Below, one piece after another: positions 11,921 to 18,094 of a stretch of DNA of 64,000 nt; within the stretch, counting starts at the first letter, position 1; each line of letters begins with the position of its first letter. Source of the DNA: Fusobacterium varium (lineage in GTDB: Bacteria > Fusobacteriota > Fusobacteriia > Fusobacteriales > Fusobacteriaceae); NCBI GenBank assembly GCA_900637705.1, contig LR134390.1, positions 1,860,001 to 1,924,000 of the forward strand, written 5' to 3'. The translations under genes and the position numbers were made by a program. The notes below the pieces were generated by a model, which saw nothing but the letters and a program-made list of their open reading frames with translations, made no database searches and was not told the origin of the DNA.

Positions 11921-11997
11921 GGGGATATAGCTCAGTTTGGGAGAGCGACGCACTTGCACTGCGTAGGTCAGCGGTTCGATCCCGCTTATCTCCACCA
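11921..11997 (+). tRNA. tRNA-Ala (TGC), copy 1
   Basis: A complete cloverleaf of 77 bases can be folded. The acceptor stem is GGGGATA/TATCTCC, the anticodon loop CTTGCAC gives anticodon TGC, the T-arm contains GGTTCGATCC, and CCA is encoded. It is identical by eye to the copy at 17940. Confidence 0.95.
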
Positions 11998-11998
11998 T

Positions 11999-12075
11999 GC
12001 CTAGATAGCTCAGTTGGCTAGAGCATACGGTTCATACCCGTACGGTCGATGGTTCGAATCCATTTCTAGGCACCA
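11999..12075 (+). tRNA. tRNA-Met (CAT), copy 1
   Basis: A 77-base cloverleaf: acceptor GCCTAGA/TCTAGGC, anticodon loop TTCATAC (anticodon CAT), CCA encoded. It is probably elongator tRNA-Met; a lysidine-modified tRNA-Ile cannot be excluded from sequence alone. It is one base after tRNA-Ala and identical by eye to the copy at 18018. Confidence 0.92.
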
Positions 12076-12084
12076 TTTGTATTC

Positions 12085-12115
12085 AACACTTCTTATTTTA
12101 AGAAGTGTTTTTTAT
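12085..12115 (+). terminator. Terminator of tRNA operon copy 1
   Basis: AACACTTCTT and AAGAAGTGTT arms pair around ATTTT and are followed by T residues. The element is duplicated, with one compensated base pair, after the second tRNA pair at 18104. Confidence 0.8.
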
Positions 12116-12143
12116 TTATAGCTTAAAATATACTGAAAATAAA

Positions 12144-12199
12144 AAGGAGTTGTTCAAATAAATAATTAAAAATCATCAATTTCTAACAACCCCTTTTTT
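12144..12199. repeat. Cruciform repeat, copy 2 (terminator-like)
   Basis: The element AAGGAGTTGTTC...AATAATTAAAAATCATC...AACAACCCCTTTTTT resembles the elements at 8907 and 47107. Its outer arms pair with one mismatch, and a T run follows on the plus strand. It directly abuts the stop of the lipoprotein gene and could terminate both that gene and the tRNA operon. Confidence 0.6.
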
Positions 12200-12201
12200 C
12201 T

Positions 12202-12561
12202 TTATTTACCTACTCTTTCCCCATCTTTCCATTCTTCCTGAAGTATTACTTTTCCTGATGTATCATATACTTTTATTACTCCATCTGCTTTTCCATTCTT
12301 AAATGTTCCTTCTATTTTTACTTTTCCATCTTCATAGTATTGTTTCTGCTTCCCATCTTGCTTTCCATTCTTCCAGTAGCTCTCCATCATTTTCTTACCA
12401 TCTGGGTACTTTGCAGTTACTTTTCCTGTAAATGGTTCTTCTACTCCTTTTTCATAAAAAACTCCATCTTTACTCTCCAGTGATGAAAGTTCTATTTCCT
12501 TTAAATTATTTCCACAGCTTAACATTAACATAGCTGCTATCATTACTATTAGTTTTTTCAT
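12202..12561 (-). CDS. MORN-like repeat lipoprotein
   Basis: This 119-residue protein has a short signal ending in the lipobox MLSC (Cys16). The mature part is built of MORN-type repeats: GVEEPFTGKVTAKYPDGKK, then SYWKNGKQDGKQKQYYEDGK, GTFKNGKADGVIKVYDTSGK and EEWKDGERVG. Such lipoproteins (YwqK-like) are abundant in fusobacteria; their binding partners are generally unknown. It lies just downstream of the autotransporter on the same strand, with a 96-base gap, and may be co-transcribed with it. Confidence 0.85.
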   Translation of the reverse strand: MKKLIVMIAAMLMLSCGNNLKEIELSSLESKDGVFYEKGVEEPFTGKVTAKYPDGKKMMESYWKNGKQDGKQKQYYEDGKVKIEGTFKNGKADGVIKVYDTSGKVILQEEWKDGERVGK

Positions 12562-12657
12562 TATTTCTCCTTTTTTTCTGTAAAGTACAACTGCAGGTAA
12601 TTACTTACCTGCAGCTGCTGGGATTTAGTTATGACAAATCTTTACTATGTTCTATAA

Positions 12658-15600
12658 TTAGAATTTGTATCCTGCCCCTAATGTAACTCCTATAGAATCT
12701 CTGTCTTCATCATCAAATTCATAAGACAATCCTCCATTGTAGAATACACCATTTGTTAATTCTACATCTGCTCCTATGTTAAGTTTCAAGCTATTTTTCT
12801 CTAAATTAGCTCCCTTAACTTTTGTAGAATCTCCTTCATTTCCTGCTCTGCTTATGAAGCTTACTTTATAGTAGTCATCATCTTTTCCTGCTACATTAGT
12901 AGTGAAACTTGCTCCTGCTAATAGATTCATTCTTCCTGTTTCAAGAGCTATTCCTTTTTTGATTTCTACTCCTAATTCTACATCTGCCATAGTATCTTTT
13001 ACTTCTTCCTGCTTCATTCTTCCATTATTAATAGAATCTTGTTGGAATCTTGTTACAGTCAATCTAGCTTTTGGTGATAATGTTAGATTTTCTCCAATTG
13101 CATAGTTGTATTTACCTTGAACATATCCACTAAATGCTGTAGAATCAAATTTATCTTTTCCTGTGAAGTTTTTAGCATCTACTCTGTCTATCATATATCC
13201 TAATCCTGTAGTTAAGTCTATATTATTAAACTTATCATTTCTATATAGTCCGAAGTAGAATGCATCTCCATCAGCGCTTGCTCCATTTTTCATATCTAGG
13301 TCTTGTTTAGTTCCAGAGAACGCGAATCCCACTGATGAAGTATCAGTCAATCCATATTCCATAGCTCCTAACAATCCTGTGTTTTTAGTTTCAACTTTGT
13401 AATCTCTTACTACTCCATCTCTATCATAGTCTGTATTAGTGAATAGGAATTTACCTTGAGCAGTATATTCACCTTGTTTTGGTCTTACATTTAATGATAG
13501 AACTGCATCTTCATTCATTTTTAATGTATCTAAAGACATTTTTACAGTTTCAGAATAGATATTGTTAGAGTAAAGGTCATCTAATTGAGCTACTCTTAAA
13601 TCAATATCTGCTGATAATAGATCATGGATAGATTGAGTAGCAACATACATATCATTTAACTCCATATATTTATATCCAGTTTTATCAATTAAACCATCTT
13701 TATTAAATATTGCATTCCATATTCCACCATTACCTTGTGTTATATTGTAGTAAATATCTCCGTTAGCTACAACAGCTCCCTGTTCCAATTTATGCTTTCC
13801 TAAATTAAATTCAGTATTTTCAGTAAGAGCATTAGTTAATAGAACTATTTTTCCTGATTTTGCATCTTGAGGAGTATTAGCAACTAAATTATTAAATGCA
13901 ATATCTCCTACAGTTGTATTATAAAGTACATTTTTTCCCTTTTCTCCTATTTCTACTCCCATATTACCATTAGCAAGGTCTATAGTAGTAGCTGTTGTCC
14001 CTGATGTTGCTCCAGATTCTATTTTAGAGTCTGCTCCAAATGTAAGCATTCCATTATCAGTTACTTCAATCTTGCTTATATCAGTAACATTACCAGTTAT
14101 TCTAGATTTTCCTTTAGCACTTAGTGTTCCTTGTAAGTTACTTCCATCAAGTTTTCCTTTGATATCAGCATTTACTGTATAATTATCTAATTCAGTAGTT
14201 CCAGCTCCAGTTAATTCTATTCCTACTCTATTTGCTGGTTCTGAAAGTAGTGCTGTTTTTGATTCTGGTGCTACCATATTAAGTGCTCCATTTGCAAGAG
14301 TAAGAGTTCCAGTGTCTGTTATTGCAATTGCAGCTTCAGCAGTATTAATATTATCAGCTGATATATTTCCTGAATAATTTAATATTGCATTATTTTCTAC
14401 TTCTAGTTTTCCATTTCCTGTAATATATACTTGACGCTCAACATTAGAGTTATCAATATTTACTGGTGTTGCTGCTGTTCCACTTATTTTCATAGTTCCA
14501 TCTAAACTGAACTGTACATTTTCTAATTTTTCATTTTCTCCAGCTGAATTTAATGTAAAGTTACCATCTTTAGCTATAGCGAATGCTCTGTCTGAACCTT
14601 CCTGATTTAAAGCTGAAGAAAGACCTTCTACTGTTTGACTTCCACTAAGGGCTTTTGCTGTAGTGAATAATTCACCATTTTTAAATCTAATATATCCAAC
14701 AGATGAGAAAGTTCCTTCTGCTCCTGTATTTATTACTCCTAAAGTTTTTAAAGCTGTTTTAACTTCGTCTATAGTTAATTGATCTAAAGCTGTTTTTTCT
14801 TTAGCTGTCTCTCCTGCGTTTTCTATAAATTCCTCTACTGTTATTCCTGAACTTGATAAATCAATAGTTCCATAGTTTGCTACATTTACTTTTTCTCCTG
14901 ATGAAATATGAGAACTTTTCTCCTTATTTGAAGTATCTACAGTACTTACATTAATAAGTCCTTGGTTAGAAAGAGATATAGTATTAGTATCATTTCCTTT
15001 AACCAATGTTCCATTTCCTTCTATTGTTACATTTCCTGTATTTTTAACGAAAGTTGTACCATCACTAACATTTGCTAAGTTAAGAGCTGTATTTCCTTCT
15101 GCTACATTTAAAGATTTTGATGTAGTATTTTTATCTCCTACATTAAGATTTATATTTAAAGTTCCTGTTATAGCTCCTGCTTTAACTATATTTCCAGTTC
15201 CTTCAGTTGCTACTTTAATATCTTTGTTAATATTTACATTTGTTGTTCCTGTTATAGCTCCTACATTTACTAGGTTTCCTGTTCCTACAAGTTCAACATT
15301 TTGGTTGATATCTACATTTGTAGTTCCTCCTACAGCTCCAATATTTACTAGGTTTCCAGTTCCTGTTACTTGAAGATTGCTTTGCTTAACATCAATGTTA
15401 ATTATTCCTCCCTCTCCATTACTAGTCACATCTATTCCTTTTGCTATTGATATTGGAGTCTTAGATGTTGGAGTTTGTGTATCTTGAAGAGTTACATTAA
15501 TAATGTTATTTGCCTTTCCAGTTACTTCTACTCCAGTTCCTTTAGTTTTTCCTAATGTAGTTGTTACAGTGGCAGTAGTAGGAGTTTCTCCATCTGATAG

Positions 15601-17085
15601 TTCTTCCAATTCCGTTCCAGTTATTTTAATACCTGTTGCACCTTCTACTGTTGAAATAATTCCAGTTGTGATATTAAGAGTACTCTTAGCTACTTTTGAC
15701 ATAGTTGCTTCTATTCCTTTTCCAGCAGCTTTAATATCAATATCTCTTGTAGATATTTCAGCTTCTGCTTCTGTATCTCCACCAGCATATACGATACCTG
15801 TTCCAGTTGCTCCATCACTTAAAGTGATAGCTATATCTTTAAGTGTTACATTTCCTTTAGCATTAATTCCTGTTCCTGCTCCTTTTAGTTCAATTGTTCC
15901 ACCAGTTACTGTTGTAGTTCCTGCTCCAGCAATATTAATTCCTGTTCCTGCTCCTTTTAGTTCAATTGTTCCACCAGTTATTGTAGTGTTTGATGTTTTA
16001 GCTGTTCCATTAATATTAATTCCTATATTACCTCTAGCATCTACTACTTCTATTTTTCCTGCTGCTCCAAATGTTACTTTTGCTCCTCCAGCTCCAGCAA
16101 CTGATATACCTGTGCCAGCTTTTACATCAATTGTTCCATTATTTGTTAGAGTGGTAGTACTGTCAGCTACTGTAGTAGTTGACATACCAATTGACCCTGT
16201 ATAATTTACATTAATAGTTCCATTATTTGTTGCTGTTCCATTTTCAGTTACTAACATTCCTGTACCAGCAGAAGTATCTTCATTTCCTGCTTCTATTGTT
16301 GCACCAGCTGAATTTTCAATCGTTGCTCCATTTTTAGCCAACATACCAATTCCTTTTTGAGCATCGATTTTACCATTATTTGTTGCTGTTGCTTTATCTC
16401 CATCAGCTAGCATACCAATAGCAGTGTTAGCCTCACCAGCATCAGCATTTACTGTAATTCCTGCAGTTTTATCTGTTTTTGCATTATTCACAGCTGTTGC
16501 TCCTGCACCAGCTACCATACCAACTGCATGTTCATTAACTGTAATTTCTCCTGCATTTGTTACTTTATCTCCAGAGTTAGTAGCTTCCATTGCTGTGGCT
16601 GTATTATCAGCATCAAATCCAGTAGCTTCAATTGTCAACTCACTTATTATTGATTTATAATCCTTCTCTGTTTTTATAAGAGTAAGTGCTCCATCAGTTG
16701 TTGCTGTTGCCTTAACTGTTCCTAAAGGAGTGTCACCCCCCTCATTAACAGCAGAAGCAAAAGTAGTTACTCCATTTTCATCAGTTTCTACAGTTAATAG
16801 CTTTGCAAGTTCCTCATTTTTACCTTCTCCTTCTCCTAGTAAAGTTTCATACTGACCTACAGAGATAAAATTTGTAGCACCGTTTACATCATTTACTCCT
16901 CCACTTCCTACTTGAACTGTTACTTTCCCCTCAGATTTTGTTGTAAATGTTACATTTGTTGGCTCTCCCCCAAATGCTACCGTTCCTGCTATTAAGAACC
17001 CTACCACTGTTGCTGCTGTTATTGATACTTTTTCCTTCAGGCATCTCTTTAAAGATTTTTCCACTTCACTAAAATTGCTAATCAT
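12658..17085 (-). CDS. Large autotransporter adhesin (type Va-like)
   Basis: I choose ATG at 17085 (MISNFSEVEKSLKRC) rather than 17103, because GGGAGG lies correctly before it; this gives 1475 residues. An extended signal (to about GTVAFG) leads into a long Thr/Gly/Asn-rich passenger with repeated beta-helix rungs such as GGTIELKGAGTGIN. The last ~270 residues form an outer-membrane beta-barrel (from about GEYTAQGKFLF) ending in GVTLGAGYKF, with the usual terminal Phe. It should be exported by Sec and display its passenger on the surface for adhesion. Only a G-poor, promoterless leader lies directly upstream, then the inverted-site element at 17328-17495, which probably controls expression. 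Confidence 0.92.
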   Translation of the reverse strand: MISNFSEVEKSLKRCLKEKVSITAATVVGFLIAGTVAFGGEPTNVTFTTKSEGKVTVQVGSGGVNDVNGATNFISVGQYETLLGEGEGKNEELAKLLTVETDENGVTTFASAVNEGGDTPLGTVKATATTDGALTLIKTEKDYKSIISELTIEATGFDADNTATAMEATNSGDKVTNAGEITVNEHAVGMVAGAGATAVNNAKTDKTAGITVNADAGEANTAIGMLADGDKATATNNGKIDAQKGIGMLAKNGATIENSAGATIEAGNEDTSAGTGMLVTENGTATNNGTINVNYTGSIGMSTTTVADSTTTLTNNGTIDVKAGTGISVAGAGGAKVTFGAAGKIEVVDARGNIGININGTAKTSNTTITGGTIELKGAGTGINIAGAGTTTVTGGTIELKGAGTGINAKGNVTLKDIAITLSDGATGTGIVYAGGDTEAEAEISTRDIDIKAAGKGIEATMSKVAKSTLNITTGIISTVEGATGIKITGTELEELSDGETPTTATVTTTLGKTKGTGVEVTGKANNIINVTLQDTQTPTSKTPISIAKGIDVTSNGEGGIINIDVKQSNLQVTGTGNLVNIGAVGGTTNVDINQNVELVGTGNLVNVGAITGTTNVNINKDIKVATEGTGNIVKAGAITGTLNINLNVGDKNTTSKSLNVAEGNTALNLANVSDGTTFVKNTGNVTIEGNGTLVKGNDTNTISLSNQGLINVSTVDTSNKEKSSHISSGEKVNVANYGTIDLSSSGITVEEFIENAGETAKEKTALDQLTIDEVKTALKTLGVINTGAEGTFSSVGYIRFKNGELFTTAKALSGSQTVEGLSSALNQEGSDRAFAIAKDGNFTLNSAGENEKLENVQFSLDGTMKISGTAATPVNIDNSNVERQVYITGNGKLEVENNAILNYSGNISADNINTAEAAIAITDTGTLTLANGALNMVAPESKTALLSEPANRVGIELTGAGTTELDNYTVNADIKGKLDGSNLQGTLSAKGKSRITGNVTDISKIEVTDNGMLTFGADSKIESGATSGTTATTIDLANGNMGVEIGEKGKNVLYNTTVGDIAFNNLVANTPQDAKSGKIVLLTNALTENTEFNLGKHKLEQGAVVANGDIYYNITQGNGGIWNAIFNKDGLIDKTGYKYMELNDMYVATQSIHDLLSADIDLRVAQLDDLYSNNIYSETVKMSLDTLKMNEDAVLSLNVRPKQGEYTAQGKFLFTNTDYDRDGVVRDYKVETKNTGLLGAMEYGLTDTSSVGFAFSGTKQDLDMKNGASADGDAFYFGLYRNDKFNNIDLTTGLGYMIDRVDAKNFTGKDKFDSTAFSGYVQGKYNYAIGENLTLSPKARLTVTRFQQDSINNGRMKQEEVKDTMADVELGVEIKKGIALETGRMNLLAGASFTTNVAGKDDDYYKVSFISRAGNEGDSTKVKGANLEKNSLKLNIGADVELTNGVFYNGGLSYEFDDEDRDSIGVTLGAGYKF
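15862..15980 (-). repeat. Internal direct repeat in the autotransporter passenger
   Basis: A 47-bp sequence at 15862-15908 recurs exactly at 15934-15980, a period of 72 bp (24 residues, in frame). It encodes TGGTIELKGAGTGIN twice. Exact repeats in a passenger allow length variation by slippage or recombination without loss of frame. Confidence 0.75.
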
Positions 17086-17327
17086 AACTATTTTTCCTCC
17101 CATTTCTTTATTTTAACTGTCCTTTTGCAGATTACTTTACTTCGTCCCAGTTTCATCTACCAAGTTACAGTTATTTACTTTTTTACATAAACTCCACATA
17201 TTTCTCCAAACTTAATTTTGTTCTTTCTACCTCTTTATATCTATTTTTTTCATTTCTCCTATGTGGAAATTTACAATGTTTTTCTCATAGTTCCCTCTCT
17301 TCCAGTAAAAAATACCCTTATTTTACT

Positions 17328-17353
17328 GTTCTCTTTTATGTATAAAAGCGAAC
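17328..17353 (+). repeat. Left 26-bp inversion site (candidate)
   Basis: Arms GTTCTCTTTTAT (17328-17339) and ATAAAAGCGAAC (17342-17353) are reverse complements at 11 of 12 positions around the 2-base core GT (17340-17341). The same 26-bp site recurs in reverse orientation at 17470-17495 with one difference. A 26-bp dyad with an asymmetric dinucleotide core is the known geometry of serine-invertase sites such as hix and gix. Confidence 0.75.
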
Positions 17354-17483
17354 ACTAATTTGGTTTTGGGGTGCATTTTTACTGGGGTCATTTTTTGGGC
17401 CTTGGGTTTTTGGGCAAAAATTTTTATTGACTATTTAAGAATTAAAGATTATAATAAAGCCATCAAAGAGTTCGCCTTTATAC
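17340..17483. other. Candidate invertible promoter segment (phase-variation switch) upstream of the autotransporter
   Basis: Two 26-bp dyad sites in inverted orientation enclose 116 bp that carry one near-consensus promoter. As written, the promoter reads rightwards, away from the autotransporter that starts at 17085 on the reverse strand. Recombination between the GT/AC cores would turn it towards that gene, giving a leader of about 280 bases. I found no other convincing promoter in the leader (17086-17327). The drawn orientation would therefore be OFF. No recombinase gene lies in this window. The rest of the 771-base gap, 17496-17813, shows no gene. Confidence 0.7.
17427..17455 (+). promoter_or_regulatory. 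Promoter inside the candidate invertible segment
   Basis: TTGACT (17427-17432), exactly 17 bases, then TATAAT (17450-17455): a near-perfect sigma-70 promoter on the plus strand. It lies 14 bases from the right inversion site. No gene follows it in the present orientation for about 400 bases. Confidence 0.75.
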
Positions 17484-17495
17484 ATAAAAGAGAAC
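17470..17495 (-). repeat. Right 26-bp inversion site (candidate)
   Basis: Arms GTTCGCCTTTAT (17470-17481) and ATAAAAGAGAAC (17484-17495) flank the core AC (17482-17483). This is the reverse complement of the left site with a single difference in the inner arm; the outer arms are identical. The core orientation (GT left, AC right) predicts inversion rather than deletion. Confidence 0.75.
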
Positions 17496-17813
17496 ACATA
17501 TTTTTTTTCTCGATTTTTATACCCCTTTTATTTCCCTTTTCCCCTTATGAATTTTTTTAATAATAAAAGCAAAATTATGATTAGAATAAATTTTAAAGTA
17601 GTTACTTTGACAGATATTTATTTCTCATATAAAAAGACAGGATAAAATTTTTTATTAAACTAAAATTAAATTTAATATTTTCATCATTATACTTCCTGTA
17701 ATTTTTCCTTTTATTGTTATTCTTTTGTCTTCTGCTCTTTTTCACTTATCCTTTGCATTTTTACTCAGATTCAATTTACAATTTTATAGTATAAAAAAAT
17801 ATCAAAAAAATTA

Positions 17814-17842
17814 TTGACAGAAAATATCTTTTATGATATTAT
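17814..17842 (+). promoter_or_regulatory. tRNA operon promoter
   Basis: TTGACA (17814-17819), 17 bases, then TATTAT (17837-17842), followed by AATTCTTGTGTC just before tRNA-Gly. The same box and discriminator occur before the tRNA-Gly gene of the reverse-strand cluster at 44923. Confidence 0.75.
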
Positions 17843-17856
17843 AATTCTTGTGTCAA

Positions 17857-17932
<76 letters not shown>

Positions 17933-17939
17933 AAGCACT

Positions 17940-18016
17940 GGGGATATAGCTCAGTTTGGGAGAGCGACGCACTTGCACTGCGTAGGTCAGCGGTTCGATC
18001 CCGCTTATCTCCACCA
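17940..18016 (+). tRNA. tRNA-Ala (TGC), copy 2
   Basis: A 77-base gene with the same sequence as 11921-11997: anticodon TGC in loop CTTGCAC, CCA encoded. It is second in a tRNA-Gly/Ala/Met operon. Confidence 0.95.
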
Positions 18017-18017
18017 T

Positions 18018-18094
18018 GCCTAGATAGCTCAGTTGGCTAGAGCATACGGTTCATACCCGTACGGTCGATGGTTCGAATCCATTTCTAGGCACCA
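18018..18094 (+). tRNA. tRNA-Met (CAT), copy 2
   Basis: A 77-base gene with the same sequence as 11999-12075: anticodon CAT in loop TTCATAC, CCA encoded. It is last in the tRNA-Gly/Ala/Met operon. Confidence 0.92.

Follow-up and report, generated by a model that had tools for sequence, protein, structure and literature searches.

Invertible promoters and global invertases are already known, with Bacteroides fragilis, a member of another organism group, as the model. In Escherichia coli, fimS is a small promoter segment between short inverted repeats, turned by the tyrosine recombinases FimB and FimE of about 200 amino acids (aa) with the help of nucleoid proteins; it is a single switch and adjoins its recombinase genes. 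The Vpma genes of Mycoplasma agalactiae are clustered and shuffled. Fusobacterial autotransporters are major adhesins, and here we describe an element that precedes one such gene in a 64,000-nucleotide stretch of the Fusobacterium varium genome (the window; contig LR134390.1, positions 1,860,001 to 1,924,000). From sequence comparison, it is quite likely that this element is an invertible promoter switching the autotransporter; the genome has at least 23 paired elements built to this plan.

Many distant surface-structure promoters of B. fragilis are inverted by a master recombinase; Mpi is reported to act on 13 regions, and in the wild type an OFF genotype prevails at one switch controlled by the Tsr19 orthologue (PMC4747536). 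No such system in Fusobacterium was found in the literature covered, which comprised titles and the starts of abstracts and left most subscription papers and all bioRxiv preprints outside.

A predicted switch element before the autotransporter gene

The initial annotation had claimed two inverted 26-bp sites with one mismatch, enclosing 116 bp and a promoter aimed away from the autotransporter, and this was borne out base for base. GTTCTCTTTTATGTATAAAAGCGAAC lies at 17328–17353 and GTTCGCCTTTATACATAAAAGAGAAC at 17470–17495, with 1 mismatch in 26 in inverted register and 116 bp between them. Adding one base at each end yields 28-bp sites that are identical at 26 of 28 positions when inverted. 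This is a better description of the site than 26 bp, and the whole element, 17327–17496, is 170 bp long. The best 28-base inverted match within 17086–17600 is 26, against 17–22 in 100 dinucleotide shuffles of that stretch, and the inverted repeat is not due to chance. The features of the switch and its target are as follows.

17327–17354, plus strand: predicted left recombination site, 28 bp, divided as 11-6-11 on the evidence of scars described below, core ATGTAT at 17338–17343
17469–17496, minus strand: predicted right recombination site from the sequence, an inverted copy (26/28), core ATACAT at 17480–17485 (ATGTAT on the other strand)
17427–17455, plus strand: predicted promoter TTGACT-17-TATAAT, 11/12 match, inside the segment and pointing away from the target gene, an OFF arrangement in the assembly
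17355–17468, no strand: segment predicted to invert, 114 bp, inverted in silico solely for promoter placement
17086–17326, minus strand: leader from switch to gene, read from the sequence
17096–17101, minus strand: likely ribosome-binding site GGGAGG of the target, from the sequence
12658–17085, minus strand: target autotransporter, 1475 aa, PF03797 barrel (Pfam E 1e-21), likely start 17085

The window promoter is a sequence match to the consensus. Inversion of the segment in silico places it at 17368–17396 on the minus strand. The leader had been described as lacking another good promoter, and indeed no promoter-like site matching at 9 or more of 12 positions faces the gene on the minus strand of 17086–17327. 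The target is a type V autotransporter, its PF03797 barrel occupying C-terminal residues 1225–1453 of a 1481-aa frame. The open reading frame listing put the start at 17103; 17085 is likelier, with GGGAGG placed just before it. The nearest named protein relatives are F. varium autotransporters, at about 70–73% identity.

The best reading of these and the following data is a genome-wide set of predicted invertible promoters, mostly assembled OFF and worked by a short tyrosine recombinase. Bound to both inverted 28-bp sites, the recombinase would exchange strands across the 6-bp core and turn round the intervening 114 bp. As assembled, the promoter would fire away from the gene (OFF); once turned round, it would drive transcription across about 275 bases of leader to the start codon (ON). 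The sites, the promoter and its direction, the array, the matched cores, the reversed homologous elements and the excision scars can be read in the sequences, whereas present-day inversion, control of transcription and the identity of the recombinase are inferred.

Related elements, matched cores and promoter direction

The initial annotation treated the element as one isolated switch; the switch architecture stood, whereas the genome proved to hold at least 23 such elements. A search of this genome (G000, 3.30 Mb in a single contig) with the 170-bp element gave 37 matches. The site pattern with up to three mismatches was found at 27+26 places (reversed control pattern, 4+7), and with up to two mismatches it gave 49+48 matches (reversed control, 0+0), the latter count possibly including a near-dyad site once per strand. 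The exact pattern GTTCNNNTTTATNTATAAANNNGAAC occurred in 4 of 61 family genomes, all four in the genus of the window, with no control matches. Across genome_contigs, which possibly does not cover the window's genome or near ones, a site pattern gave two single matches only, in unrelated organisms. We catalogued 86 paired elements in four genomes, namely 23 in G000, 17 in G025, 23 in G026 and 23 in G027, after removing 4 of 90 rows as not site-like; the G000 and G026 counts are lower bounds (at least 23 each), taken from among the two-mismatch matches listed. A 98% copy of the window element lies at 2933923–2934092 before a paralogous autotransporter, in the same orientation.

In G000, 19 of the 23 elements precede PF03797 genes, some of them broken (at least three are split into two or more frames). 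Target autotransporters appear split in this way in the assembly at L011 6733–10355, L012 1869–5120 and L021 5961–8566. The other four targets are a 1210-aa protein, whose start resembles those of autotransporters and which has no Pfam match above the cut-off, a 231-aa outer-membrane barrel protein, a 160-aa protein with no Pfam match, and a 112-aa HU-like protein. PF03797 has 36 matches in G000; these exceed the switch-linked ones, so some autotransporters lack a switch. Seven autotransporter frames are longer than 2700 aa, and none has a switch among the catalogued elements. At L022 5563–5767 and L062 (G025 165898), a switch precedes a 160–270-aa gene; G000 and G025 share its location and its orientation, with flanks identical at 373/399 and 372/401 positions. 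By its sequence this gene may be a chain-length-type polysaccharide gene, but the 161-aa frame has no Pfam match.

In 85 of 86 pairs the central 6-bp cores of the two sites agree once one of them is inverted, against a mean of 23.4 and a maximum of 39 in shuffles within genomes, in a catalogue where pairs were chosen by overall site identity, core included, and a core bonus ranked overlapping alternatives, a bias toward matched cores. As a direct repeat, the cores are identical in 1 of 86 pairs. The variants are ATACAT (49), ATAGAT (10), ATATAA (8), ATATAC (7), ATACAC (4), ATCCAT (3) and five others found once each. Strand exchange across the core between inverted sites would give such pair-matched cores, and both this agreement and scar breakpoints located at the core are features of a tyrosine-recombinase switch. 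The sites could instead be paired operators at which a dimeric DNA-binding protein loops or represses a fixed promoter, with no inversion. That each site is itself a near-dyad, and that promoter orientation is largely uniform, would suit such an arrangement. Binding alone, however, does not account for the inverted match, in nearly every pair, of a core that is both variable and asymmetric, and it would leave unexplained both the elements reversed behind the same downstream DNA and the exact one-site scars described below; we regard paired operators as very unlikely. A single element, at L011 10473–10651 (G000 1564472), has unequal cores (ATACAT versus ATCTAT, compared in inverted register); it may combine parts of two elements and be unable to invert.

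Both orientations are observed among homologous elements (L072 versus L074), not for the window element. The downstream flanks of G025 2099441 and 2279890 are identical at 349/400 positions (87%) and the upstream flanks at 264/411, and the elements between them align at 195/228 when one is inverted versus 146/234 in the same orientation. The same holds for G000 1145043 and G025 2099441, with 190/226 inverted versus 152/239.

Single sites remain at two places in G000, 595781 and 2105539, whose flanks match those of an intact paralogue at 3064000 (upstream 191/200 and 190/200, downstream 110/110 and 105/110). In each, a core is flanked on one side by the outer arm of the first parent site and on the other side by that of the second. 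The core is ATGTAT at one place and ATACAT at the other, both parental cores thus being represented. Alignment to the paralogue shows these two sites as exact excision scars in which the promoter was lost. It is from such scars that the 11-6-11 division of the site would follow. Deletion between misaligned sites would leave a mismatched core, sorted either way by replication, and both outcomes are present. The ON/OFF reading first proposed for the window element is thus supported by comparison within and between genomes, through matched cores, a reversed homologous element and exact scars.

Promoter direction was assessed with a strict rule, TTGA[CT][AT]-17-TA[TC][AC]AT, in the 84 elements with an assigned target (22 targets were assigned by hand, and two elements had none). 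A strict promoter was present in 51 of 84 elements and in 0 of 1680 shuffles. Under a looser rule (at least 10/12), 49 elements had a promoter facing away from the target, 5 toward it, 14 both and 16 neither, against 7.6% per direction in shuffles. The best candidate seen for a switch in the ON state directly before an autotransporter is G026 958542, where a TTGACT-17-TATTAT promoter faces a 1265-aa autotransporter and the element aligns better with its relative when inverted.

Several observations weigh against the invertible-promoter reading. Forty-six of the 51 strict promoters face away from the target and 5 toward it, none of these elements having both. Among element pairs at least 90% identical, orientation relative to the target is the same in 94 and opposite in 0; at 80% the counts are 180 and 2, and at 70% they are 250 and 36. 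Recent flips are therefore hardly seen, near-identical elements sharing their orientation. Of the five elements with a promoter toward the target, four belong to a single class whose compared homologues are oriented alike, and the fifth is oriented as in G000; since their orientation is shared in this way, they are not flips by themselves, although G026 2467942, a member of that class, aligns better to the main class when inverted (0.73 versus 0.53). The window element and its 98% copy are known in one orientation only, from one assembly. Two further reversed cases are weaker: G026 1934757 versus 3783352 (206/262 inverted versus 194/270) and G026 958542 versus 1641173 (153/200 versus 128/207, with poorly matching flanks). 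No PF00589 or PF00239 recombinase gene lies within the window, and a 189-aa candidate recombinase is also present in genomes that gave no match to the exact site pattern.

The main rival explanation accommodates much of this: inversion would belong to the past, with most elements now locked OFF and the array serving as a silent store of surface genes. The excess of outward promoters, the shared orientation of close copies, the promoter loss in two scars, the mismatched cores at G000 1564472 and the several split target genes all fit. Core agreement in 85 of 86 pairs is nevertheless taken to require continued use or recent spread, and intact recombinases with catalytic residues exist; we judge locked elements to be unlikely. 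The outward promoter might also be the functional product, making a transcript away from the autotransporter (here toward a tRNA array), with the inverted sites incidental. A strong promoter does face away in most elements that have one, but the DNA on that side differs between loci and a separate promoter-like site, at 17814–17842, serves the tRNA array, leaving this explanation extremely improbable. Returning to invertible promoters, we read the orientation counts as OFF being the usual state in sequenced cultures, with flips probably rare or strongly biased.

Candidate recombinases and the cassette locus

PF00589 gave nine matches in G000, eight of them over the cut-off, and PF00239 one. 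A serine invertase was rejected as the acting enzyme: the lone PF00239 protein is 450 aa long and is not a small invertase of the Mpi type. Two short tyrosine recombinases are the candidates, one of 189 aa (1408056–1408622) beside an HU gene and one of 198 aa (358180–358773). The catalytic residues R, K, HxxR, H and Y are invariant in 10 aligned sequences and kept by both.

Searches of 12 genus genomes located the 189-aa protein in 10, at 91–100% identity in the four site-rich genomes and 56–65% in six others, one of these six copies having two internal stops; it was not found in G022 or G024. At 75% identity or more, the 198-aa protein was confined to the four site-rich genomes. Weaker matches to it occur in G020 (51%) and on other contigs of G027 (54–57%), and G000 has a broken copy. 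In G026, two HU-like genes (PF00216) precede one copy by about 0.9 kb. HU-like proteins of this family (about 97–112 aa) are also seen behind several switches (L126, L017 5741–6079, L096 4554–4850 and L148 52–625).

G018, a more distant relative, has the 189-aa type and lacks the 198-aa type. One of its six autotransporter upstream regions carries a diverged element of the same plan, with an inverted match of 18/20 (at most 16/20 in 40 shuffles) and a TTGACT promoter facing away. A second region reached 16/20, no better than shuffles (up to 17), and a third resembles a single-site scar. The diverged site sequence is of the GTACGCCTTTTAGCAAAAA type; across L161 2680–2707, L163 and L164 2325–2492 it shows this plan before one autotransporter and the apparent scar before another. 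In 12 further upstream regions from G028, G019, G023 and G020, with gene starts guessed from open frames, nothing exceeded 16/20. The 189-aa protein is favored because a diverged element occurs in G018 with this type and without the other. We put the chance that it is the acting recombinase at about even; the 198-aa type is a possible but less probable choice, and a Xer-type or other protein an unlikely one.

A fuller picture can be drawn, in which about 20 autotransporters per genome stand behind their own invertible promoters and a given cell line keeps nearly all of them OFF. The switches would be worked by one or two short tyrosine recombinases and kept distinct by the pair-specific 6-bp cores, acting as address labels, while HU-like proteins encoded behind some of them would feed back on the recombinase. 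The result would be bacterial antigenic variation with as many as 2^23 surface states. Taken as a whole this picture is doubtful.

The autotransporter and its switch occupy a 5.8-kb gap between two tRNA arrays (window 11921–18094).

11921–12075, plus strand: tRNA-Ala and tRNA-Met array, left bound of the cassette (tRNA matches)
17857–18094, plus strand: tRNA-Gly, tRNA-Ala and tRNA-Met array, right bound of the cassette (tRNA matches)

The arrays are 127 bp apart in G026, with no cassette between them; the gap measures 7.3 kb in G025 and 4.4 kb in G027, each holding other autotransporter cassettes with their own switches. A counterpart of the window's own cassette was not found in this gap in the three site-bearing relatives, which have other cassettes or none. 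The gap looks like an exchangeable cassette site. Upstream of many switches lie an ATPase frame of 268–272 aa (L013 3682–4488; similar in L023, L061 and others), which is PF01695, IstB-like, in the single frame scanned, and a second, conserved frame (MAxENQVILxVVQ) about 105 aa long. A mobile element may have spread the cassettes. Known phages and plasmids were rejected as carriers, 17086–17856 having no match in phage or plasmid collections; the exact site pattern had no match in viral_contigs. A known RNA element was likewise rejected: Rfam, at gathering score, gave 12 matches in the window, every one a tRNA.

Comparison with known systems

If most F. varium-group autotransporters in this size class sit behind such switches, one culture or assembly reflects one state among many, and strain comparisons and adhesion assays would be affected by switch state. 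The scars and pair-matched cores form a natural data set on how inversion is chosen over deletion when a short tyrosine recombinase acts, a question that can be tested directly with the two candidates.

The array resembles fimS in its small promoter-bearing segments between short inverted repeats and its candidate recombinases of about 200 aa. It differs in comprising at least 23 switches and in having no recombinase near the window switch. As with Vpma and Xer1 of M. agalactiae (PMC2268961), a recombinase would diversify a family of surface proteins, as proposed here; unlike Vpma, each gene has its own predicted invertible promoter and the genes are scattered over the chromosome. The Mpi, Tsr0667 and Tsr19 systems of B. 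fragilis are similar in placing invertible promoters for surface structures at many loci. Their targets are polysaccharide operons, whereas those found here are mostly autotransporters, and Mpi is a serine recombinase, whereas no small serine invertase was found in G000. The F. varium array is set apart from these named cases by the number of its switches, the class of its targets and its variable cores matched within each pair.
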